DNA of 11,272 bases from contig PKXR01000059.1 in the NCBI GenBank assembly GCA_003133485.1, positions 546-11,817 of the forward strand. Reading direction: 5' to 3'. A program made the position numbers and the translations under genes. This document shows, piece by piece, positions 1 through 11,220 of the stretch (its first letter is position 1; each line of letters opens with the position of its first letter). A model generated the notes under the pieces. That model was not told the DNA's origin. It did no database searches and worked only from the letters and a program-made list of their open reading frames with translations. Source of the stretch: Candidatus Dormiibacterota bacterium. Its GTDB lineage: Bacteria > Chloroflexota > Dormibacteria > UBA8260 > Bog-877.

Positions 1-629
1 AGAATCCGCCGGCGGCTTCCGCCCATGACCGAGACCGCCTGGACGTAATCCCGGACGCGCAGCGAGAGAGTCTCCGCCCTCACTAATCGCGCCGGTACCA
101 ACCACGCCACCAAGCCGATGACGATGATGAGTTCCAAGATCGACGTGCTGAAGATTGCGCCCAGCAGGATCAGTGCGAAGAGGAACGGGAAGGCCAAGAG
201 CGTGTCGACTATCCGCATCATCACCGCGTCCAGCAGTCCCCCGGCCAGCCCGGCGATGGCGCCCCAGATCACCCCGAAGGTCACCGCGATGAGGGCCGCC
301 GCAAAGCCGATTTCCAGTGAACTCTGGCCGCCGAACATAAGGCGGCCGAGGACGTCGTAGCCGACTTCGTCGGTGCCCAACGGATGGGCAAGGCTGGGTG
401 ACTGAGTGGCAATGCTGGGGTTGTTATAGATTTGCTGCGTGTGGTATATCAGCGGGCCCACGAAGCAGAAGAGCACCATGAAAATGATCACGCCCAGACC
501 GACAGCAGCCAAGCGGTTCTGGAAGAAGACGTCTGCGATCATGCGCCAGACCGAACCGGATGCAGCGACTTCTCCCCCTTCGGGGATCACCTCATCGGAC
601 GCCGAAGAGAGCTGGGAGATGAGGCTCAC
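1..629 (-). CDS. dppC: Dipeptide/oligopeptide ABC transporter permease, DppC/OppC type (partial, C-terminus beyond the window)
   Basis: This is an inner-membrane permease subunit of a peptide-type (or nickel-type) ABC importer, partner of the DppB-like protein encoded just upstream. The 209 visible residues start at a GTG, which has AGGTGA seven bases upstream and an in-frame TGA a few codons further up. A polar N-terminus of about 35 residues is followed by the first membrane helix (about 40-62). Next comes the DppC/OppC hallmark HPLGTDEVGYDVLGR (82-96), then helices near 105-128, 140-160 and 164-180. The cytoplasmic EAA loop that contacts the ATPase begins at about residue 195 (DYVQAVSVMGGSRRRI), where the window ends. 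Usual family length is 270-310 residues, so roughly a quarter to a third is missing. The 52-base gap after dppB suggests co-transcription. Substrate cannot be read from the permease; no binding protein or ATPase gene is visible here. Confidence 0.93.
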   Translation of the reverse strand, partial: MSLISQLSSASDEVIPEGGEVAASGSVWRMIADVFFQNRLAAVGLGVIIFMVLFCFVGPLIYHTQQIYNNPSIATQSPSLAHPLGTDEVGYDVLGRLMFGGQSSLEIGFAAALIAVTFGVIWGAIAGLAGGLLDAVMMRIVDTLLAFPFLFALILLGAIFSTSILELIIVIGLVAWLVPARLVRAETLSLRVRDYVQAVSVMGGSRRRI

Positions 630-636
630 GACCAAG

Positions 637-681: not shown

Positions 682-1623
682 CTAGACGTACCTGATCCGG
701 GGATCGACCACCGCGTACAAAACGTCCGCGATGAGGTTCCCCACCACCGTGGCGATAGCTACCACGACGCTTACTCCCAGCAGCACCGGGAAATCGTCTG
801 TCACCGCCGATTGAAAGAACAGCAGTCCCATCCCAGGATAGTTGAAGACCTCTTCGACCACCACTGCACCGCTCAGGATCCCACCTAAGGAAAGGCCGAT
901 CAGCGTGATCACTGGCATCAGCGCATTGCGCACGACGTGGCGGATGAGCACCGCACGGTGGGAGAGTCCTTTGGCCCGAGCAGTCCGGACGTAGTCCTGA
1001 ATGCTCTGCTCTAGGACCGAGCTTCTCATGTACCGGCTGAACAGCGCGACCGTCACTAACGTCAGCGTCGCGACAGGCAGGATCATGCCGTTCAGCTGAG
1101 AAAAAACACTGATCTGATCCTGTGGTGCCTCATAGGGGAGCCAATTAAGGGTCAGGCTGAAGAGACCGATCAGCAAGATGCCGAGCCAAAAGCTCGGCAT
1201 CGAGTAAAAGATGAAGGAGAGGCCGGTGAGGACGTAGTCATCCACCTTGTTGCGTCGCACTGCCATCACCACGCCCAGTGGCACCGCGATGATGATCGCC
1301 AACACCAAAGAACTACCGACCAAGAACATCGTCTTGGGGATGCGTTGCGCCAGGAGGGCGGTAACCGGCTGGTCCAGCTTGTAGGAATAGCCCAGGTTCA
1401 AATGGATGAGGTTGTTCACCCAGATTCCGTACTGGATTGGTAGCGGCTTGTTCAATCCCAACTCGACCGTGAGTTGGTGAACCGCCAACGGCGTCGCTCG
1501 CTGGCCAAGGATTGCTCGCACGGGACTGCCCGGGAGCAGGTGCAGAAGGATGAACGTCACAATGGTCACCCCCAACACCACGATCAGCGACTGGGCGAGG
1601 CGCCGGAGGATGAACCCGATCAC
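682..1623 (-). CDS. dppB: Dipeptide/oligopeptide ABC transporter permease, DppB/OppB type
   Basis: This is an inner-membrane permease subunit that pairs with the DppC-like protein to form the channel of a peptide-type ABC importer. The 313-residue length is normal for the family. The GTG start is chosen because the protein then opens with the typical IGFILRRLAQSL, running into the first helix (about 9-31) and the HLLPGSP motif. No ATG occurs until deep in the protein, and the longer frame upstream is arginine-rich and unlike the family. Further helices lie near 99-122, 132-159, 177-198, 233-259 and 278-302. The EAA loop (about 211-240, YVRTARAKGLSHRAVL) matches the site that docks the ATPase, and the C-terminus DPRIRYV is classic. 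A weak AGAGG precedes the start. The spacer upstream carries hairpins, so the permease genes may be expressed at a different level from the enzymes. Confidence 0.94.
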   Translation of the reverse strand: MIGFILRRLAQSLIVVLGVTIVTFILLHLLPGSPVRAILGQRATPLAVHQLTVELGLNKPLPIQYGIWVNNLIHLNLGYSYKLDQPVTALLAQRIPKTMFLVGSSLVLAIIIAVPLGVVMAVRRNKVDDYVLTGLSFIFYSMPSFWLGILLIGLFSLTLNWLPYEAPQDQISVFSQLNGMILPVATLTLVTVALFSRYMRSSVLEQSIQDYVRTARAKGLSHRAVLIRHVVRNALMPVITLIGLSLGGILSGAVVVEEVFNYPGMGLLFFQSAVTDDFPVLLGVSVVVAIATVVGNLIADVLYAVVDPRIRYV

Positions 1624-1801: not shown

Positions 1802-2773
1802 TCACAAGGTCTCCGGGACTCCAATCCCCAGCAGCGGGTCACCAGACTTGACCGCCAGAGAGGTCACCAAGAAAATCACGACCCCCCCCGCCGTCGCCCG
1901 GAGCTCCATGATTGTCTCCCCGAAAATGGTGCGCAACTCACCTACCGCCTGCCCCTCCGTGACCTGCTCGCCAACCTTCACGGTGGGATGGTACGTGGCC
2001 GACACGTCGGTTCTCATCCAGACCATCCGGTCCATCGGCATTGGCGCGGTTGGGGGCTCCCCCACCGGATCGATCATGCCGAGGTGGGCCATCACGTTCT
2101 GCAATCCCCGCAGGTGGCGCTGCACGGAGGGCTCGTCGCAGATTCCCTGCTGACCGATCTCGGCGATGATCGCTGGAACCCCGAGCAGCGCGCCTGCTGC
2201 GTAGGCGGCTCCGGGCACCGAGAGAGGGTCAACCCCCAAAGTGTGCTCGAAGCCGTACACCGCCGCGAGCTGTCTTGACCTCTCAGCGACTCCCGGGTCC
2301 CCGGCCCGCGTCCAGAGGGTGAATGGGCTAAGAGCCTCGATGAGGTCTCCGCAGTGGGCGTCAACGTAGGCGTCTGACCCGTCGATCAACTCGGAGAGCA
2401 GGAAGGCGGCCACCTGCTCGGCGGGACTTCCATCGCGGTTGCCCGGGAACGATCGATTCAAGTTGCGCCCATCCCGCGGATTGACGTAGATGGATCGCTC
2501 GTAGAAGCCAGGGGTGTTGACCAACAGCACGGCCACCAGCGTCCCTCGCAGCTTGGCGGGGTCGACCCAGCGAGTCAGTCGGGTCACTGCCTCGATAGGA
2601 ACGTACTCCGCGGCGTGCATGCCGCTGGTCACCGCCAGGGTCGGGCCCGGCGCTTTTCCTCGAATTACCACAGCCGGCATCTCCCAGACCGGGTCCAGCC
2701 CGGGAACTACTAGCTGGCCCCGGCGGCGCTCGCCGGGCTCGGCGGTTAGGTTCGCAATCGACTCTCTTCCCAT
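1802..2773 (-). CDS. Succinylglutamate desuccinylase/aspartoacylase-family (M14-like) zinc deacylase
   Basis: This is a predicted zinc-dependent amidohydrolase that removes an acyl group from an N-acyl amino acid or related amide (AstE/AspA, COG3608-like). The start at 2773 gives 323 residues and has an excellent GGAGG seven bases upstream. The metal site is visible as GMHAAEY with H53 and E56, and H140 in VDAHCGD. The family motif NLNRSFPG (104-111) would bind the substrate carboxylate, and E205 in IAEIGQQG is the likely general base. Residues about 250-323 form the lipoyl-like beta domain common in this family (VKVGEQVTEGQAVGEL, then a second half near the C-terminus). There is no signal peptide, so it is probably cytoplasmic. 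It sits between a DUF885 gene and peptide permeases. The true substrate is unknown; N-acyl amino acids, N-acetylated diamines and ectoine-type derivatives are known in the wider family. Confidence 0.88.
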   Translation of the reverse strand: MGRESIANLTAEPGERRRGQLVVPGLDPVWEMPAVVIRGKAPGPTLAVTSGMHAAEYVPIEAVTRLTRWVDPAKLRGTLVAVLLVNTPGFYERSIYVNPRDGRNLNRSFPGNRDGSPAEQVAAFLLSELIDGSDAYVDAHCGDLIEALSPFTLWTRAGDPGVAERSRQLAAVYGFEHTLGVDPLSVPGAAYAAGALLGVPAIIAEIGQQGICDEPSVQRHLRGLQNVMAHLGMIDPVGEPPTAPMPMDRMVWMRTDVSATYHPTVKVGEQVTEGQAVGELRTIFGETIMELRATAGGVVIFLVTSLAVKSGDPLLGIGVPETL

Positions 2774-2780
2774 CTCGCCT

Positions 2781-2785
2781 CCTCC
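2781..2785 (-). promoter_or_regulatory. Ribosome binding site of the deacylase gene
   Basis: GGAGG (within GAGGGAGGAGG on the minus strand) lies seven bases before the ATG at 2773. It is the best ribosome site in the window and argues for this start over the longer in-frame extension that reaches 2842. Confidence 0.7.
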
Positions 2786-2811
2786 CTCGAATCTACCTGA
2801 CGCTCTAGCCG

Positions 2812-2886
2812 GGTCGTGACGTCCGGCACCGGCTTGAGCCACGCCCTGGCGGACCTCTCAATTCCGAATCAGCCGGACCCACGACC
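2812..2886. repeat. Bipartite inverted repeat in the leader of the deacylase gene
   Basis: Within the 114-base spacer, 2812-2817 (GGTCGT) pairs with 2881-2886 (ACGACC), and 2821-2827 (GTCCGGC) pairs with 2872-2878 (GCCGGAC). This gives 13 perfect pairs with a small 3x2 internal loop, closing a loop of about 44 bases. The minus-strand RNA would fold it between the DUF885 stop codon and the deacylase ribosome site. No T-run follows. It may be an operator with two half-sites, an mRNA processing element, or chance in GC-rich DNA. Confidence 0.45.
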
Positions 2887-2887
2887 G

Positions 2888-4591
2888 TCACCCCGGCACC
2901 GATTCTATCCAGCGAAACACGACCCTCTCCAAGACCCCGAGGGGCACCGCGCCGTTGCTCAGAACCGCGCCGTGGAATGACCGGAGGTCGAACCGATCGC
3001 CGAGTCGCGCCTCGGCCAACGCGCGCAGGCGGCGGATTTCCCGACAGCCGACCATGTAGGCGAGCGCCTGTCCCGGCCATGAGATGTAGCGCTGGATCTC
3101 GTTGGTGACGTTCGCCATCGTGGTCGCCGTGTTGTTCCACATGTAATCGATGGCCTGCTGCCGCGACCACCCGAGGTGATGCATCCCGGTGTCGACAACC
3201 AGGCGGCAGGCCCGCAACGCATCAAAGGAGAGCATCCCCACGCGCTGCAGGTCCGAAGTGTAGAGCCCCATCTCGTCCGCCAGCCGCTCGCTATACAGAC
3301 CCCAGCCCTCGATGTACCCGCAGACCTCGGCATCCAGATGCCGTCGAAAAGCCGGCAGCCCAGTGAGCGCCTGGGCCGAGGTGATCTGCAGGTGATGGCC
3401 CGGGCTGCTCTCATGGAACGCCAGCGCCTCGTACTCGTAAACAAAGCGCTGCGTGGGGTTAGTGGTCAACACGCAGTGCGCCCCGGGCCGGGTGCCGGCT
3501 GGGGTCGGGGGACGGTAGTAGGCTAGCGCGGCGTTGTGGGACTCGATGGGGCTGATCTCCTCCACGACACATCCCGGCAAGAGCATCGGCGGAAACCACA
3601 GGTCGCGAGCGGCTTCGGCCCGACTCAGGGCATCGGTTACCACTTTGACGATCTCGACTGTGTTCGAGAATCGGAGCGCCGGGTCGTTGCGCAGCCGCGT
3701 CCGAATCTCGGCTACGTCGCTGGTGCCCAGCACCCGTTCCCCAAGCTCCGCCCACTCCTCCTGCAGATCGGCGATCTTGTCGATCCCGATCTGGTGGATC
3801 TCCGCCGGCGACAGGTCGGTGGTGGTATGCCGGCGGACGGCGTCGCGATAGCCCTCTTGACCGCCGGGGATGAAGCAGATCCCCACCCGATCGTCGTCCC
3901 GGGCCGCCGGGAGCAGCTCCTCCTGCAGCCCGGCCCGCAATCGGCGCATCGCCGGGCGCACCTGGGTCTCAACCAGCTCAGCGATCCCTGCCCTTGACTG
4001 GTCCTCGGCGCCGTGTCGGGGCAGCGCGACATCGACCAGGATGTCGCCGTCGAGCGGTTGGGCCAAGTGCCTATCGAGCTGTTCGACGGCCTGGCGCACG
4101 CCCGAACGGGTGGAGGGTCGGCCCTCGGAGGTGGCCTGGCGGTAGCGGTCGAGCACCGCATCGAAGTAATCGGGGAGACCAGAGAGTCGTTTCAGGTAGC
4201 CATCCAGCGCGGCGGCGTCGCCGAGGGGAGCCGTGGGCACCGCCTGGAAGACCATGCTCTGAGGCGACACATATCCCGCCGCGGAGGCATCCGCCTCCCA
4301 GAGACCGTGCTCCAGATCCGAGCGCGCACCCCAGGCCAGCCGGCCCAGCACGGCGTGGTTGACTCGGTCGGACTCGTTGAGGCTGTCCACCTCGATGGTG
4401 TTCAGTCGCTCTTCGATGCGGGAGAATCGAGCCGCGTTGCGCTCGGCTCCGGCGCGGCTGGGATCCGGGACCTGGTCGTCGAATCCTGGCACTCCCAACA
4501 TGGTCGCGTTGAAGGGATCGGCAGAGTTCATCACCTGGAAAAACTCCTCGCTGAGGTGCGCTAGCAAGCGATCAGGCGGTGGTTCGGTCAC
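2888..4591 (-). CDS. DUF885-family putative zinc metallopeptidase
   Basis: This 567-residue protein belongs to the DUF885 family, a poorly characterised group of gluzincin-like metallopeptidases. The metal-binding motif FHESSPGHHLQ places H393, E394 and H399 in the family HExxPGH pattern. E428 in GYIEGWGLYSE is the likely third ligand. Other family blocks follow: MHHLGWSRQQAIDYM and the WPGQALAYMVG block, where a substrate-pocket role is inferred. Family lengths are commonly 550-620, so it looks complete. No signal peptide is seen, unlike many secreted relatives, which suggests action on imported peptides. The start is GTG, with GGAG nine bases upstream; the next plausible in-frame start would remove conserved-looking N-terminal sequence. 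It follows the M20 gene by 56 bases. The exact substrate is unknown. Confidence 0.88.
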   Translation of the reverse strand: MTEPPPDRLLAHLSEEFFQVMNSADPFNATMLGVPGFDDQVPDPSRAGAERNAARFSRIEERLNTIEVDSLNESDRVNHAVLGRLAWGARSDLEHGLWEADASAAGYVSPQSMVFQAVPTAPLGDAAALDGYLKRLSGLPDYFDAVLDRYRQATSEGRPSTRSGVRQAVEQLDRHLAQPLDGDILVDVALPRHGAEDQSRAGIAELVETQVRPAMRRLRAGLQEELLPAARDDDRVGICFIPGGQEGYRDAVRRHTTTDLSPAEIHQIGIDKIADLQEEWAELGERVLGTSDVAEIRTRLRNDPALRFSNTVEIVKVVTDALSRAEAARDLWFPPMLLPGCVVEEISPIESHNAALAYYRPPTPAGTRPGAHCVLTTNPTQRFVYEYEALAFHESSPGHHLQITSAQALTGLPAFRRHLDAEVCGYIEGWGLYSERLADEMGLYTSDLQRVGMLSFDALRACRLVVDTGMHHLGWSRQQAIDYMWNNTATTMANVTNEIQRYISWPGQALAYMVGCREIRRLRALAEARLGDRFDLRSFHGAVLSNGAVPLGVLERVVFRWIESVPG

Positions 4592-4647: not shown

Positions 4648-6015
4648 TCACGAGCTCGCGAGCCGGTGGGGACCACTGCCCAGCAGCCGCCAGAGGTGCT
4701 CCCATGCCCGCATCCCCTCCCGGAGTCGGCGGATGCGCAGGTATTCGTTGGGCGCGTGCAGCCGCTCGTCCGCGGTCGAGAATGAGAAGAAGAGGGTCTT
4801 GGCCCCGAGCACCTCCTCGAAGAGGACGGTGGCCGGCAGGGTGCCGCCGATCTTTGCTAGCAGCACCGGCTGGCCCGGGTAGACATGTTCCAAGGCAGCG
4901 CTGGCGGCCCGTACTGCCGGATGCTCGGGCGAGATGGTGTAAGCGGCGACGGCGACCTCATCCGGATGAACTTGGACTGTGACTCCCCGCGCGGGCTGGG
5001 CCATTACGTGTTCGGTGATCGCCTGCAGCACCTGATCCGGGTCCTGGCCCGGGACCAGCCGGCAGGACACGTGGCCGGTCGCGACGTGAGGGATGACGCT
5101 GTACTTGCCCCCGCCGCTGACGCCGGTGATCTCCAGGGTGGGGCGCTCCCAGAGCCGCTCGAGGGTCGAGTACCCCGGCTCGCCGTGCAGTTCATCGAGT
5201 TGGAGCTGGCTCATGTAGGCCCCATCGTCGAAGGGCACTGCCGCGATCTCCTGGCGGCGGGAAGGGCTGAGTTCGGGGATCCCGTCGTAGAAGCCTGCGA
5301 CCGCCACTGCTCCCTCTTCGGTGTGCAGGCTGGCCAGGATCTGGGCCAGCCCGTGAACCGGGTTGGCGACCGTGCCCCCGTAGCGACCCGAGTGGAGGTC
5401 ACCAGCGGCCCCTTGAACTTCGATGTTCATGGTCACCAGGCCCTTGGAGGCCACCGACACAGAAGGCTCACCTGGCCGCCACATCGCGCCGTCCGCGGAG
5501 ACAACCAAGTCGGCGGCCAGCAGTTGCGCGTGCGTCCTAAGAAAGGCCGGTAAGTGGGGACTTCCGATCTCCTCCTCTCCCTCGAAGACGAACTTCACGT
5601 GGAGCGGAGGCGAGCCCTCCTGGTTCGCAAATGCCTCGGCAACCCGGAGCACGATGTAGACGGGTCCCTTGTCGTCGCTGGCGCCCCTGCCCCGCATGAC
5701 GTCGCCATCCACCGTGAGCTCGAACGGCCCCGTGGTCCACTCTGCCAGATCCCCGGTCGGCTGCACGTCGTAGTGCCCGTAAACCAGGATCGTCGGGGCG
5801 CCGGGTGGACCGGCCAGCTCCGCGAACACGACGGGATTGCCCTGCGTCTCCATAATCCGGGAGTTGGCGAACTTCAGCTGGTCGGCCAACCAAGCGGCCG
5901 CGCGGCGCATGGTTTCCTGTGGAGCGTCCCGGCTGACGCTGGGGATTGCGACGAACTCCGCGAGCTGGCGGATGTAGCCGGCGTCGTCATCGCTAAAAGA
6001 GAGCATGTCCACCAT
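4648..6015 (-). CDS. M20-family metallodipeptidase (carnosinase/PepV-like)
   Basis: This is a predicted di-zinc exopeptidase cleaving dipeptides or N-acyl/N-carbamoyl amino acids in the cytoplasm. All M20 catalytic landmarks are present in order: H81 and D83 in YGHYDVQP, bridging D114 in RGASDDKGP, catalytic E148 and ligand E149 in EGEEEIGS, D175 in VSADGAMW, the dimerisation-domain motif DLHSGRYGG, and H420 in ERLHAPNEY. At 455 residues it matches the dipeptidase branch of the family. The ATG at 6015 lies inside the end of the SDR gene (23-base overlap). A TTG at 6018 and an ATG at 6006 are alternatives, and none has a convincing ribosome site, so translational coupling to the SDR is likely. 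Closest functional relatives by motif are carnosinase-type non-specific dipeptidases. Confidence 0.93.
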   Translation of the reverse strand: MVDMLSFSDDDAGYIRQLAEFVAIPSVSRDAPQETMRRAAAWLADQLKFANSRIMETQGNPVVFAELAGPPGAPTILVYGHYDVQPTGDLAEWTTGPFELTVDGDVMRGRGASDDKGPVYIVLRVAEAFANQEGSPPLHVKFVFEGEEEIGSPHLPAFLRTHAQLLAADLVVSADGAMWRPGEPSVSVASKGLVTMNIEVQGAAGDLHSGRYGGTVANPVHGLAQILASLHTEEGAVAVAGFYDGIPELSPSRRQEIAAVPFDDGAYMSQLQLDELHGEPGYSTLERLWERPTLEITGVSGGGKYSVIPHVATGHVSCRLVPGQDPDQVLQAITEHVMAQPARGVTVQVHPDEVAVAAYTISPEHPAVRAASAALEHVYPGQPVLLAKIGGTLPATVLFEEVLGAKTLFFSFSTADERLHAPNEYLRIRRLREGMRAWEHLWRLLGSGPHRLASS

Positions 6016-6715
6016 CAATTGAGAGGGTCTGGCCGGTCACCCACGCCGACGCGTCGGCGACGAAGAATCGGACCCCGTTGGCGATGTCTTCTGCCTTTCC
6101 CAGGCGGCGCACGGCGATCCCCTCCAGCAGCGCCGCCTGTCCCGCCTCCCCGTATCCCTCCCACTGCTTGATGGAAGTGGGGTTGGAGAGCACGAAGCCC
6201 GGGGCAATGCAGTTCACGGTGATCCCGTACCTGCCCAGCTCGTGCGCCATCTGGCGGGTGAATCCGATCTGTCCCGCCTTGGCGCTGGCATAAGCCTGGA
6301 TTCCGGTGAGGCTGACGCTGCGACCGGCTCCCGAGGAGATGTTCACGATCCGGCCCCACCCCCGCTGCTTCATCCCCGGAACGACTGCCCGCGTGCAGTG
6401 GAAGGTGCCGGTGAGGTTGGCGTCGACGATGGCGTTCCACTCCTCGTCCGAGATCTCCTCGAGCGGATGGTGGATCTGGCCCGCGACTCCGCCGGCGTTG
6501 TTGACCAGCACGTCGACTGTGCCCAGCCCGGCGAAGTAGGCCGTCACGGCCTGCCCGTCGGTGACGTCGACCTCTTCTTTGTCGACGCCGTGGACGGTCA
6601 TCCCGTCAGCCTCAAGAGCGGCGGCGATTGCCTCCCCGATCCCGTGCGCGGTGCCGGTGACCACCGCCACCCGGGCGTAAAGCCCCTCAGCCGGATCGAT
6701 GGCTCGCGATTTCAT
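5993..6715 (-). CDS. Short-chain dehydrogenase/reductase (classical SDR, FabG-like)
   Basis: This 240-residue NAD(P)-dependent oxidoreductase acts on a keto or hydroxy group. The cofactor loop is TGTAHGIG (20-27). NNAGG follows at 72-76, and the active site is N100, S128 (NISSGAG), Y142 and K146 (YASAK). D45, at the end of the second strand (GVDKEE), points to NAD(H) rather than NADP(H). The C-terminus carries the usual WVTGQTLSIDGG. The start at 6715 leaves an eight-base gap after the dipeptidase gene and gives a normal SDR N-terminus; a much longer in-frame extension to 6874 lies inside the upstream gene and is rejected. The ribosome site is weak, consistent with coupling. Substrate is unknown. 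In this cluster it may oxidise a hydroxy acid or alcohol released from the imported compound. Confidence 0.93.
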   Translation of the reverse strand: MKSRAIDPAEGLYARVAVVTGTAHGIGEAIAAALEADGMTVHGVDKEEVDVTDGQAVTAYFAGLGTVDVLVNNAGGVAGQIHHPLEEISDEEWNAIVDANLTGTFHCTRAVVPGMKQRGWGRIVNISSGAGRSVSLTGIQAYASAKAGQIGFTRQMAHELGRYGITVNCIAPGFVLSNPTSIKQWEGYGEAGQAALLEGIAVRRLGKAEDIANGVRFFVADASAWVTGQTLSIDGGHALF

Positions 6716-6723
6716 CCGACGGC

Positions 6724-7938
6724 TCACGGGTGGGATTCCCAGGCGACACCGATGAGCCGGAGGACATTGCCCCCCAAGACCTTGTGGATGTCCCCGTCCG
6801 AGTACCCGTGGGTCACCAGCCAGCGGGCGATGTTGGAGAAGGCCTCGGCGGGGCTCTCGAGCCCTTCGACCCATGGCACCCGCTCGAACTCCAGCGGCGG
6901 GTTGGGCTTCGGCAGTCCCTGGCCAAACCGTTGGTCCACGACCCGGTGCAGCCCTACGTGGTCGCCAAAGATGGTGTCCGGGCCGAAGGCCACGTGGTCG
7001 ATCCCGGCCAGCTCACAGCAGTACTCGAAATGGGCCATGTAGCTATCTATGGTGTGGCGGGGATGCTGGCGCGACAGTGTCGTGTGGGGAGCCGCCTCGA
7101 TGCCGATGATCCCGCCCTTTTCCGCGCAGGCCCGGATCACGTCGTCCGGTTTCATTCGCGCCGTGGGCCAGACCGCCCGGGCGCCAGCGTGCGAAATTGA
7201 GACGGGGGCCTGGCTGGCGTCGATCGTGTCCAGGGTGGTCCGATCGCCCGCGTGCGAGCAGTCGATCAGGATCCCCAGCTGATTCATCCGGTGGACGGCT
7301 CGGCGGCCGAAGGTAGTCAGTCCCCCGTCATGCGCCTCTGATAGGCCGCTTCCGAGATTGTTGGCCTCGCTGTAGGTGACCCCAACCGCGCGGATCCCAA
7401 ACCCGTAGAGAATGTCCAGCCGGTCGAGCTCGTTCTCGATCGGAGCCGCCGACTCCACCGCCAGGATGACCCCCAGCTGCCCATTCTTTTGGGCAGCCTC
7501 GATGTCGGAGACGCGGTGGACGATGCGCAGGTAATCCTGATGGGCGATGTCACAGAGCCGCATCCCCAAATCGACCAGAGTGTCGTCCCACTTCCAGCCC
7601 ATCAGCGAGGTGATCTGACCCTCGCCGTCCGCCAGGTTGTCGAAGACGGCGTCCAGTCCTGACTTGCTGAGTCCCAGGTACCCAGTGACGTCTCGGCCGT
7701 GCCGCCGATACTCAAAGAGTTGGTCTGGGTCTGCGGGCAGGACCGAAGGGTGGTCGTGGAAGGAGATCACCGGACCCTGCTCCAGCAAGCGCAGGACTCG
7801 GGCCTCCTCCGTCTCGTTGGTCGGCACCTGATGCAATGGCACGCGATCCAATTCATCCGCCAGCTCGAACACCCGGTAGTCCTGGTGGGGGACCAGGTAG
7901 TCGTAGGAGTGGTAGCCACGATAGGCGGTGCGCTTCAT
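6724..7938 (-). CDS. Membrane-dipeptidase-like (M19) metallohydrolase
   Basis: This is a 404-residue member of the renal/membrane dipeptidase superfamily (COG2355). Characterised members hydrolyse dipeptides, including ones with a D-residue at the C-terminal side, and some beta-lactams. The ATG at 7938 has GGAG six bases upstream. Visible landmarks are FHDHP (H61, D62, H63), E162 in ILAVESAA as the bridging carboxylate, H229 in LIDCSHAGD, H250 in VSISHAGAR, and D321 in AFGPDT. The usual first motif is HxD, whereas here it reads H-D-H, so a metal ligand may differ. The N-terminal 55 residues before this motif are unusual for the family. There is no signal peptide or lipid-anchor motif, so despite the family name it should be cytoplasmic. 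It ends eight bases before the SDR gene, implying tight coupling. Confidence 0.87.
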   Translation of the reverse strand: MKRTAYRGYHSYDYLVPHQDYRVFELADELDRVPLHQVPTNETEEARVLRLLEQGPVISFHDHPSVLPADPDQLFEYRRHGRDVTGYLGLSKSGLDAVFDNLADGEGQITSLMGWKWDDTLVDLGMRLCDIAHQDYLRIVHRVSDIEAAQKNGQLGVILAVESAAPIENELDRLDILYGFGIRAVGVTYSEANNLGSGLSEAHDGGLTTFGRRAVHRMNQLGILIDCSHAGDRTTLDTIDASQAPVSISHAGARAVWPTARMKPDDVIRACAEKGGIIGIEAAPHTTLSRQHPRHTIDSYMAHFEYCCELAGIDHVAFGPDTIFGDHVGLHRVVDQRFGQGLPKPNPPLEFERVPWVEGLESPAEAFSNIARWLVTHGYSDGDIHKVLGGNVLRLIGVAWESHP

Positions 7939-8008: not shown

Positions 8009-9052
8009 TCATGCCAGCATGACCTTGATCGACTGGCGCGCTGACATGGCCGCGTAGCCCTCCGCGACTCGGTCCAAAGGCAGCGTCTTGTCGAAGACCG
8101 GGCTTGGGTCAAGCGTGCCGGCGGTCACTCGGGCGATTAGATCGGGCAGGTACCGTCGTCCGGGAGCGACGCCCAGGCTAATGCGCAAGTGGTGGATGAA
8201 GGGGTCGAAGAGCGGGAGTTGCGGCATGGTGTGGGGCACCCCCACGGCACCGATCGAGGCGCCGTCGCGGGCCATGCCGATCGCCATCTCCCACGATTCC
8301 GGGGTCCCCACCGCCTCCACCACGTGACGCACCCCGAGTCCCCCGGTGAGCTCGCGGACTGCGCTGATCCCCTCGGCACCCCGGGTCGCGACGATGTCGG
8401 TGGCACCGAAGGTCTGACCGACCGTCTGCCGGTCCGGATGTCGGCTCATGAGGATGACTCGTTCCGCGCCCAGGATCTGGCGGGCACCCAGTACCGCGCA
8501 GAGTCCCACCGCCCCGTCGCCGATGACGGCGACGGTTGCGCCCTCGCCGACTTCGGCCAGTACTGCCCCGTGCAGTCCCGTGGCGACGACATCCGTCAGT
8601 CCTAGGAGCGACGGCAGGAGTCCATCACCCACCTGGGCCAACCCGCCAGGCACCTGGACCAACGTCCCGTCCGCCTGCGGCACCCGCACCGCCTCCCCCT
8701 GGCCCCCGTCAGTCCCTGGGGCTCCAAAGGTCCCACCGTTGACGCAGGACGTCTGGAGCCCATCGAGGCAGGCGGGGCAGGTGTTGTCAGACCACTGAAA
8801 TGGGGCGACTACCAGATCTCCCACCGCGATGGTCATCACCTCGTCCCCCACCGACTCCACGATGCCAATGAACTCATGGCCGAGCCGGGAACCGGCGATG
8901 CGCTGAATGATCCCGCGGTAGGCCCAGAGGTCGGAGCCGCAAACGCAAGAGCGCAGCACCCTGACCACGGCGTCAGTGGCCGCCCCCAGTGACGCGTCCG
9001 GGACGTCCTCCACCACCACGTGGCCGGCCGATTGGTAGATCGCGGCTCGCAT
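8009..9052 (-). CDS. Zinc-dependent alcohol dehydrogenase (MDR superfamily, probably NADP-linked)
   Basis: This 347-residue medium-chain dehydrogenase interconverts an alcohol and an aldehyde or ketone. Catalytic zinc residues are C38 (CVCGSD), H59 and E60 (GHE), and D154. The cofactor loop is GDGAVG (178-183). After the second strand the sequence is S203-R204, the pattern used by Thermoanaerobacter-type secondary alcohol dehydrogenases to hold the NADP phosphate. The structural-zinc lobe has only three cysteines (C92, C95, C103), with D89 where the first cysteine normally sits. The ATG at 9052 has GAGG nine bases upstream and follows the fusion gene by 32 bases. A 70-base gap precedes the dipeptidase gene. 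Substrate is not readable; a small alcohol or amino-alcohol product of the hydrolases is a guess. Confidence 0.92.
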   Translation of the reverse strand: MRAAIYQSAGHVVVEDVPDASLGAATDAVVRVLRSCVCGSDLWAYRGIIQRIAGSRLGHEFIGIVESVGDEVMTIAVGDLVVAPFQWSDNTCPACLDGLQTSCVNGGTFGAPGTDGGQGEAVRVPQADGTLVQVPGGLAQVGDGLLPSLLGLTDVVATGLHGAVLAEVGEGATVAVIGDGAVGLCAVLGARQILGAERVILMSRHPDRQTVGQTFGATDIVATRGAEGISAVRELTGGLGVRHVVEAVGTPESWEMAIGMARDGASIGAVGVPHTMPQLPLFDPFIHHLRISLGVAPGRRYLPDLIARVTAGTLDPSPVFDKTLPLDRVAEGYAAMSARQSIKVMLA

Positions 9053-9084: not shown

Positions 9085-11220
9085 TCATCGAGCCGCGGGC
9101 TCGCGGTGCGGCACGTCCAGGACAGCCTCGATCCAGGCCGCGGCCGCGAGGAGCGCGTAGTCGGTGCCCCGGGGGGTCGCGAGTTGCAGGCCAATGGGCA
9201 GGCCACCCTCGCTCCAACCGCACGGCAACACCAGCGCCGGAGCTGCCGTCAGGTTGAAGACCTTGGTGAACCTCCCCTCGGCCGCTCCCTCGGCAGTGTC
9301 GAGCGGGGGCGTGGTAACCGGCGCGACGAATGGCACCGCCGGGGTGATGAGCACATCGAGGTCCTCGTACATGGCGGCCACTCGGGGCAACAGCTCGTCC
9401 CGGCGCTGGCATGCGCTCCGGTAAGTCTCCTCACTGGTCTGCCTGGCCGATTCCAGGAGACGGAGGGTCTCCGGGCCAAAGTGATCCGGATCGTGGCGCG
9501 CCTGGGTCCCGTGGATCTGCCAGATCTCCCACATCAAGATGTCGTCATAGGTCTCGTCGAGGGCTGCCAGCGCGCTGCCGTCGATCTGGTTAACGGTGCA
9601 TCCCGCCTCCGTCAGCTGCTCCAGACTGCTGCGGAACGCCATTTCCACCTCGGGATCGAGCTGCCCAAAGTGCTCCTCGATAACGCCAATCCGCAGGCTC
9701 CGGGGCACACCGACCAGCTGCCCGCCGGTGAGGGCCGCCAGCGCCCGCGCCGTGATCTCGACATCGCGGCCTATCAAGCCGACGTGATCCAGGGAGTGAG
9801 AGAGGGGCTGAGCTCCCTCGACTGACAGTAGTCCGAACGACGGCTTCAGCCCGACCACGCCGCAGTAGGCGGCGGGGACCCGGATTGAGCCGCCGGTGTC
9901 GGTGCCCACGGCCAGCGGGCAGGCGCCGACCGCGACCAGCGCTGCCGAGCCGCCGCTGGATCCCCCGGCGGTCCGGCCACGGTCGTACGGATTCGTGGTC
10001 TCGGGGACGTCGGGATGGAGCGCCCCAGCGGCGTACTCGAGGAGCGTGGTGGTGGCAAAGACGTCAGCCCCCAACCGCCGCAGGTCCTTCACCACCGGCG
10101 CGTCTTCGGTCGCCGGCGGACCTGCCATGTCGTGCGGATTCCCGTTACCACGGGGGTAACCCCCGACGTCGATCAGGTCCTTGACCGCCACCGGGATTCC
10201 GTGCAGCGGCCCGTCGGGAGCCCTGGTCGGGGCCGGGATCAAGCGCACCACCGCATGGAGCGGGCGACCGAGCCGGTCGGCGCGCTCGTAGGCCGCTAGT
10301 AGCTCGAGGTTGGCAACCTCGCAGGTGCGCTCACCTCGCTCGATCGCCAGGATCAGCTCCCCCGCGAAGGTCGTCAGTGGCCCCTTGAGGTCGTGGAGCA
10401 GATCATCCACTTCCGTCTTGCGCTTGCGCACCATGAGGTCTCGATAGATGCCGCTGTGAGACTTGGCGCTGGTGCGGTTGAAGACGACTAACCGCGCCAG
10501 CGAATTCTCCAAGTCTTCCGGGTCGAATCCGTCGAAAGACTCAGGTTTGACGGGGGACTGCGCCAAGACCTCGCGCGCGATCGCCAGCATCAACGGCTGC
10601 CACTTCGGATCCTCCAACGAGTCCGCGATGGAGAGGTCAGACACCGCTCCCGCATAAAGCATGGCGCCGTAGGCTTCCTTGCCCCACAGGTACCCCAGGA
10701 TGTTGGCAGTCGGTTCCGCGTACGGCAGAGCGTCAGCCAGCTCGCGGACCCGGGGCGTGATCGATCCACCGCGGGGCTCACCAACGCGAAAGGTCCCGAC
10801 GTTTCCCTGCATGATTCGACCGGGGCCCATGACATCGGCCCCGAAGTTCACGAAGCTGACGATCACACGATCCCATCCGACCGCCGCAGCTAGGGTGTTG
10901 GCGGTCAGACCGTTCTGGAAGCTGACCAGATAGCCGTCCGACGCCAGGCGCTGGCGCAGGGGTTCGACCGCCTCCGCGGAGTGGTGACGTTTGACCGCAA
11001 TCGCGGCGCGGTCAATCGTGTCCGGGAGCTCGTCTGGGGTGACCGCTCGCGCTGCCACCGTGAAGCTCTCCACTGGCCCTTCGATGGTGAGGCCGTCGCG
11101 GTTGATCGCCGCTACATGAGCGGGGTCCGCGTCACAGAGGAGCACCTCGTGACCCGCACGGATCAGATGGGCTCCGACGGTGCCGCCGATGGCGCCGGCC
11201 CCGATGATCGTCAAGCGCAT
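9085..11220 (-). CDS. Fusion protein: ketopantoate-reductase-like domain plus amidase-signature hydrolase
   Basis: A single uninterrupted 711-residue frame carries two enzymes. Residues 1 to about 295 resemble 2-dehydropantoate 2-reductase (PanE/ApbA): the loop GAGAIGG at 7-13, a predicted catalytic K181 (LWGKEAYG) and E270 (KTEVDDL). Residues about 300-711 are an amidase-signature enzyme with the full Ser-cisSer-Lys triad: K347 (GIPVAVKDL), S421 (AGGSSGGS) and S445 (GTDTGGSIR), 74 and 24 residues apart as in the family. The junction is compact: the reductase tail runs straight into an amidase-like first helix (LELLAAYERADRLG) and LHAVV. The start is certain, since an in-frame TAA directly precedes the ATG and AGGAA lies eight bases upstream. 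It is the first gene of the visible cluster. Reaction is unknown: probably an amide hydrolysed and a 2-keto acid or similar carbonyl reduced (or the reverse oxidation). GatA function is unlikely without GatB and GatC. Confidence 0.92.
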   Translation of the reverse strand: MRLTIIGAGAIGGTVGAHLIRAGHEVLLCDADPAHVAAINRDGLTIEGPVESFTVAARAVTPDELPDTIDRAAIAVKRHHSAEAVEPLRQRLASDGYLVSFQNGLTANTLAAAVGWDRVIVSFVNFGADVMGPGRIMQGNVGTFRVGEPRGGSITPRVRELADALPYAEPTANILGYLWGKEAYGAMLYAGAVSDLSIADSLEDPKWQPLMLAIAREVLAQSPVKPESFDGFDPEDLENSLARLVVFNRTSAKSHSGIYRDLMVRKRKTEVDDLLHDLKGPLTTFAGELILAIERGERTCEVANLELLAAYERADRLGRPLHAVVRLIPAPTRAPDGPLHGIPVAVKDLIDVGGYPRGNGNPHDMAGPPATEDAPVVKDLRRLGADVFATTTLLEYAAGALHPDVPETTNPYDRGRTAGGSSGGSAALVAVGACPLAVGTDTGGSIRVPAAYCGVVGLKPSFGLLSVEGAQPLSHSLDHVGLIGRDVEITARALAALTGGQLVGVPRSLRIGVIEEHFGQLDPEVEMAFRSSLEQLTEAGCTVNQIDGSALAALDETYDDILMWEIWQIHGTQARHDPDHFGPETLRLLESARQTSEETYRSACQRRDELLPRVAAMYEDLDVLITPAVPFVAPVTTPPLDTAEGAAEGRFTKVFNLTAAPALVLPCGWSEGGLPIGLQLATPRGTDYALLAAAAWIEAVLDVPHREPAAR

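Follow-up and report, generated by a model that had tools for sequence, protein, structure and literature searches.

In malonamidase E2, Arg158 serves the substrate carboxylate, and ketopantoate reductases (KPRs; PanE/ApbA) fall in a wider dehydrogenase group that also holds opine dehydrogenases. For E. coli PanE, excerpts of PMC3478992 quote roles for Lys176, Asn98, Lys72, Glu256 and Ser244 and a contact of Asn180 with the alpha-hydroxy group, and they call a 2-ketoisovalerate reductase KPR-like. A reference title in PMC4580590 groups KPRs and D-mandelate dehydrogenases in one D-2-hydroxyacid dehydrogenase family, and an excerpt of PMC5592240 gives methylaspartate ammonia-lyase (MAL), mesaconate CoA-transferase and mesaconyl-CoA hydratase as members of the methylaspartate/mesaconate route. 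The gene analysed here joins a KPR-like domain to an amidase domain. Neither this fusion nor the gene cluster around it was found described in the titles and abstract beginnings of the papers listed from an open-licence library; database domain lists already show the architecture, under names such as 2-dehydropantoate 2-reductase or amidase family protein. The cluster is apparently undescribed, and the fusion a variant built from known families.

The fusion gene is a single 711-codon open frame on the minus strand of the 11,272-nt stretch analysed here (the window), running from 11220 to 9085 with an ATG start and a TGA stop (Table 1). Pfam finds both domains in its product, PF02558 (ApbA/PanE N-domain) at residues 4–149 with 92.5 bits against a cut-off of 22.2, and PF01425 (Amidase) at residues 334–691 with 265.8 bits against 27. 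The initial annotation had claimed exactly such a frame, with a PanE-type fold and an amidase triad, and its coordinates were right, the strand being left unnamed; the GAGAIGG loop and the catalytic K181, E270, K347, S421 and S445 that it had named are all present where it placed them, the five residues being kept in 61–62 of 62 aligned fused rows. Invariant in these rows are K181, N103, K77, G185, S445 and D30. E270, K347 and S421 deviate in a single row, that of homologue P0039; S256 is kept in 60 rows, and G7, G9 and G12 of the loop in 61, the remaining row being gapped.

Table 1. Features of the window, with residue numbers of the fusion protein where they apply
Feature	Residues	Position	Strand	Evidence
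KPR-amidase fusion gene	711 aa + stop	9085..11220	-	Open frame, Pfam, homologue search
KPR (PanE/ApbA-like) domain	1-311	10288..11220	-	Pfam ApbA 4-149; TIGR00745 3-274 below cut-off; stand-alone orthologues
Amidase-signature domain	312-711	9088..10287	-	Pfam, structure comparison
GAGAIGG dinucleotide-binding loop	7-13	11182..11202	-	Sequence and alignment
Catalytic Lys, KPR half	K181	10678..10680	-	Kept in 62/62 rows
Catalytic Glu, KPR half	E270	10411..10413	-	Kept in 61/62 rows
Shared helix (the join)	302-321	10258..10317	-	AlphaFold2 secondary structure, malonamidase E2 alignment, stand-alone KPR tails
Amidase triad Lys	K347	10180..10182	-	Kept in 61/62 rows
Amidase cis-Ser	S421	9958..9960	-	Kept in 61/62 rows
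Amidase nucleophile	S445	9886..9888	-	Kept in 62/62 rows
Zn-dependent alcohol dehydrogenase-like gene, next downstream of fusion, 32-nt gap		8009..9052	-	Pfam
M19 dipeptidase-like gene		6724..7938	-	Pfam; start from gene caller
Short-chain dehydrogenase (SDR) gene		5993..6715	-	Pfam and gene caller
M20 dipeptidase-like gene		4648..6015	-	Pfam, NCBIfam, gene caller
DUF885 gene		2888..4591	-	Pfam
AstE/AspA-type deacylase gene, start uncertain		1802..2842	-	Pfam, NCBIfam
OppB-like permease gene		682..1623	-	Pfam, NCBIfam, gene caller
OppC-like permease gene, cut by window end		3..635	-	BLAST clustering with OppC-like permeases of other loci

Behind the fusion follow, all on the minus strand, the genes for the Zn-dehydrogenase, M19, SDR, M20, DUF885, an AstE-like protein and two Opp-like permeases. 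A Zn-dehydrogenase gene of this group directly follows in 26 of 60 fused sets and in 10 of 19 stand-alone loci. The Dormibacterota locus L018 has the same gene order, plus a binding-protein gene (PF00496) just upstream, and other loci carry a recurring gene set in several arrangements. Scanning genome contigs yielded 170 relatives; 80 loci were kept for study and classed by gene caller and BLAST labels as fused (59), KPR alone (19) or unclassed (2). One fused and one stand-alone form lie about 13 kb apart on the same contig (L054 and L063), and genomes G010 and G019 likewise hold both forms.

Fused and stand-alone forms usually lie in the same kind of cluster, made up of an Opp-type transporter, several peptidase-like hydrolases, dehydrogenases and, often, MAL (Table 2). 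Three fused loci, L024 (22 kb), L027 (15 kb) and the short L044, show one recognised cluster gene each. Ten representatives of cluster genes received their names from Pfam and NCBIfam: MAL scored 552.6 bits (cut-off 286), and the putative M55, asparaginase, CoA-transferase and CitE members remained under the NCBIfam cut-offs. As a whole, the cluster seems to serve the uptake and breakdown of an unusual peptide-like nutrient.

Table 2. Cluster genes near the fusion (60 sets: 59 loci plus the window) and near stand-alone KPRs (19 loci); counts are lower bounds, as flanks and contigs end
Gene	Fused sets (of 60)	Stand-alone loci (of 19)
Asparaginase-2	at least 40	at least 17
M55	at least 34	at least 15
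SDR	at least 34	at least 18
Opp ATPase	at least 35	at least 14
DUF885	at least 19	19
MAL	at least 24	at least 13
M20	at least 12	at least 16
M19	at least 13	at least 15
AstE	at least 22	0
RpiR	at least 1	at least 16
Zn-dehydrogenase	at least 26	at least 10
Creatininase-like	at least 8	at least 8

Among the 19 stand-alone loci, which are L061–L080 without L065, 10 have the Zn-dehydrogenase, 8 the creatininase-like gene, one (L066) neither and none both; L037 is the only locus with both among the fused loci that have either. A distant second unit, at L046:13727-21919, carries an amidase (30%), Opp permeases, a binding protein, an amidohydrolase and a KPR (40%) as separate genes, so that KPR and amidase are paired there again, unfused.

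The association with MAL was measured in 200 evenly drawn genomes of one family, with KPR called at E 1e-60 and MAL at E 1e-50. KPR was present in 23 genomes, MAL in 16 and both in 12; MAL therefore occurs in 12/23 KPR genomes versus 4/177 others (Fisher p 3e-10, kinship not corrected), and 11 of the 23 are without MAL at E 1e-50. MAL is thus a frequent, not a constant partner of KPR, and its role as an invariable partner was rejected. Across 396 genomes sampled at phylum level, the centre genome alone had the KPR (E 1e-60), and four, the centre included, had MAL. MAL was also over its cut-off in 29 of 31 chosen genomes, which is no independent evidence because 30 of the 32 loci behind them, hand-picked from the 80, already showed MAL in the locus or contig neighbourhood. 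Seven genomes (G466, G467, G486, G524, G547, G566 and G608) encode a divergent KPR half (54–60% identity, open frames of 735–865 aa) and are without MAL at E 1e-50; these may use another substrate.

The likeness to the methylaspartate/mesaconate route lies in the MAL genes near both forms (Table 2) and in further genes beside one cluster: just upstream of that in L102 are genes for a CoA-transferase and a CitE-like lyase, together with a match to mesaconyl-CoA hydratase (PF19315, 79 bits). In contrast, glutamate mutase E (PF06368) was over its cut-off in one of the 31 chosen genomes (and in 0/14 control genomes), and MAL is absent among the eight window proteins scanned, the cluster being cut by both window ends. 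The presence of MAL without glutamate mutase E suggests that glutamate is probably not the source of methylaspartate there and that the substrate of MAL probably comes from outside.

Taken together, the fusion is, on balance, rather probably a bifunctional enzyme that serves the catabolism of an imported aspartyl-type pseudopeptide or amide. Its N-terminal half would be an NAD-linked KPR-family dehydrogenase whose substrate is a 2-hydroxy or 2-oxo carboxylate, though not ketopantoate, and its C-terminal half a Lys-cisSer-Ser amidase opening an amide bond. The two would share one imported substrate, an aspartyl-type pseudopeptide or half-amide, or would work on fragments of it, and what remains would pass, in many species, through 3-methylaspartate and mesaconate. 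The fusion would mean that two enzymes of one route are made jointly and are perhaps kept close together; channelling need not be obligatory, since separate forms persist. Several observations speak against this catabolic reading: KPR is without a fused amidase in 19/80 kept loci; a search with the amidase half found a full-length match of at least 50% identity in 10 of these 19 stand-alone-KPR genomes and none in the other 9, several of which are incomplete MAGs; L024 and L027 are fused and have one recognised cluster gene each; MAL is missing from 11 of the 23 KPR genomes above; and P0039 is changed in both halves. Consecutive steps on one molecule, as first proposed from the sequence, remain plausible, with KPR and amidase as separate genes in one cluster in four genomes; a need for covalent linkage does not follow, and the nine genomes with no close full-length amidase weigh against the idea.

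The KPR half shares with the ketopantoate reductase family (PF02558, TIGR00745) the N-domain, the GxGxxG loop and the main catalytic positions. Structural relatives identified by sequence include 5hws, 3hwr and 3wfi. The counterparts of the quoted E. coli residues are K181, N103, K77, E270 and S256, as placed by the alignments with solved relatives and by motif reading, E. coli PanE itself being outside the alignment; by analogy, the kept Lys181, Glu270, Asn103, Lys77 and Ser256 would fit the handling of a carboxylate and a carbonyl. Unlike in the family, Asp30 presumably replaces an NADP-type residue. It stands directly after strand 25–29 of the model in 62/62 rows, which we take to be a sign of NAD over NADP, and this one position suggests that the KPR half prefers NAD. 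Given the wider group to which KPRs belong, and the Opp/nickel-type permeases and many amide hydrolases nearby, this half could instead be opine-type or imine-reducing, splitting or making an N-substituted amino acid from which the amidase removes an amide. We regard this as unlikely: the KPR-half matches are KPRs and nucleotide-sugar-type dehydrogenases, with no opine dehydrogenase among the matches listed.

The amidase half resembles the amidase-signature family in its Pfam score, in its Lys347, Ser421 and Ser445 triad and, by structural alignment, in its fold; malonamidase E2 (1o9o and other entries) aligns structurally with it. In contrast to malonamidase E2, the position of Arg158 is taken by Val448, so the substrate need not be malonamate. 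The two halves diverge unequally: mean identity to the window protein is 74% for the KPR half versus 57% for the amidase half, the former being higher in 61/61 rows, and the KPR half is, to judge from identity, the more constrained one. Such unequal rates, and the loss of amidase residues in P0039, might indicate that one half alone is catalytic and the other a scaffold or NAD sensor. P0039 combines E270D, K347A and S421A and is probably a decayed or re-purposed member. With the key residues of both halves kept in 60–62 of 62 rows, and stand-alone KPRs persisting, 9 of the 19 in genomes with no close full-length amidase match, a single catalytic half has a slim chance of being right.

The bifunctional reading assumes a substrate other than ketopantoate, and several features of the KPR half point in this direction. 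TIGR00745, the NCBI PanE family, matches residues 3–274 with 121.6 bits, under the cut-off of 141.35, and the stand-alone orthologue in L068 scores 120 bits. Pfam ApbA_C was not matched in the window protein at E 0.001; it is precomputed for the relatives P0021 and P0034. The counterpart of Asn180 is G185 in 62/62 fused rows, aligned with an Asn of 5hws (numbering by motif reading). With this Gly and the missed PanE cut-off, the KPR half probably acts on another 2-hydroxy or 2-oxo acid. That it is simply the ordinary PanE of the organism, with an amidase attached for pantothenate-related chemistry, is therefore improbable, even though the PanE/ApbA N-domain and the catalytic Lys and Glu are present and source databases call many relatives 2-dehydropantoate 2-reductase; most loci with long flanks show a peptide-type cluster (L024 and L027 being exceptions), and the spread is patchy (23/200 genomes of one family). 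The pantoamide- or lactamide-type substrate of the initial annotation finds no support here, in view of the same Gly and missed cut-off, of the neighbours, which point to peptides or aspartyl compounds, and of the eight window proteins scanned with Pfam, none of which is a pantothenate enzyme.

A protein search with the window protein gave 7077 matches among 7999 scored candidates. Among the best 120 of these 7077, both PF02558 and PF01425 are present in 119, and 118 have a length of 705–735 aa; the exceptions are P0020 (642 aa, a partial entry according to its source), which has Amidase only, and P0028, with 659 aa. The 120 derive from metagenomes, from MAGs of Dormibacterota and from named Actinomycetota, Streptosporangium and Nonomuraea among them. 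The fusion is conserved across many Actinomycetota and Dormibacterota. Among the fused loci, 57 exceed 650 aa, L053 and L058 being cut by contig ends. None of 71 viral stretches that matched a pattern encoded a relative, and none of 1551 plasmid records matching part of the query covers 80% of it. Two loci were left unclassed: L065, whose anchor the gene caller missed, and L059, with an apparent two frames and a run of X at the join that marks an assembly gap. The window sequence has no frame break between the domains, and relatives are mostly fused (59/80 kept loci), with 19 as KPR alone. An evolved rather than accidental fusion is thus strongly supported. That an assembly or frameshift artefact joined two genes can be dismissed, since full-length fusions recur in many separate assemblies, isolates among them, and the run of X explains the split in L059.

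The window protein was modelled with AlphaFold2 from 62 rows (mean pLDDT 94.6, pTM 0.92). In this model residues 302–321 form a single helix common to both halves, the final KPR helix continuing as the first amidase helix, a predicted difference from other amidase-signature proteins. The structural alignment with malonamidase E2 starts at residues 299–301. The 19 stand-alone KPRs are 63–70% identical to the window protein over their match, which stops at residue 311 for 16 of them (at 324 in L063, 333 in L076 and 340 in L078), and 18 of the 19 are 317–331 aa long (L073, 346 aa). The shared helix, the start of the alignment and the ends of the stand-alone KPRs together place the join after about residue 311, somewhat later than the residues 295–306 first suggested. 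As the structure comparison spans mainly residues 207–711, the KPR fold rests on sequence matches; the KPR domain modelled by itself from one sequence had a pLDDT of 38.7, and this model was set aside.

Of the 10 amidase matches in stand-alone-KPR genomes, three (G003, G010 and G019) are fused copies at another place in the genome and seven are separate genes. Four of the seven sit in the cluster and adjoin a binding-protein gene. In L102, L103 and L106 the amidase gene is placed between that gene and oppB; in L101 it diverges from the operon. The contig of L106 ends before any KPR, and the KPR of that genome is on another contig (L064). The three others (L104, L105 and L108; Geodermatophilaceae) lie away from cluster genes. 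In these three, the 20–25 residues before the amidase resemble a KPR tail better than 1999–2000 of 2000 shuffles. This likeness is absent in the cluster-borne separate amidases, where 126, 1526 and 1751 of 2000 shuffles were as good; the L103 gene has no preceding stretch as called.

In the amidase tree, with distant outgroups, separate amidases nest within fused ones in three places. A single clade of all fused amidases was rejected (AU p 9.5e-8; 32 fused rows versus 13 others), and one of fused plus cluster-borne separate amidases gave an AU p of 0.022. The KPR tree splits fused from stand-alone forms with 100/100 support and unites the stand-alone KPRs in one group; a fused clade was not rejected by AU (p 0.374), the root being unsure with a single distant outgroup. 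The nesting of separate among fused amidases suggests that separation probably came after fusion. The simplest history would be one old fusion followed by separations, some of which left both genes in one operon. The two trees do not fit a single simple account: separate amidases occupy three positions, stand-alone KPRs a single one, so transfer or repeated separation may have contributed.

More tentatively, the fusion could be the signature enzyme of an undescribed, widespread bacterial pathway, in which a beta-linked (methyl)aspartyl pseudopeptide or amide would be imported, oxidised and deamidated on one polypeptide, and 3-methylaspartate burned via mesaconate. Entries named 2-dehydropantoate 2-reductase or amidase (119 two-domain clusters in the best 120 of 7077) may be misnamed parts of a catabolic pathway. 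With its fused and separate forms, the conserved cluster provides a natural experiment on functional linkage, and its genes are a concrete set from which to look for a nutrient that has been overlooked in soil and freshwater bacteria.
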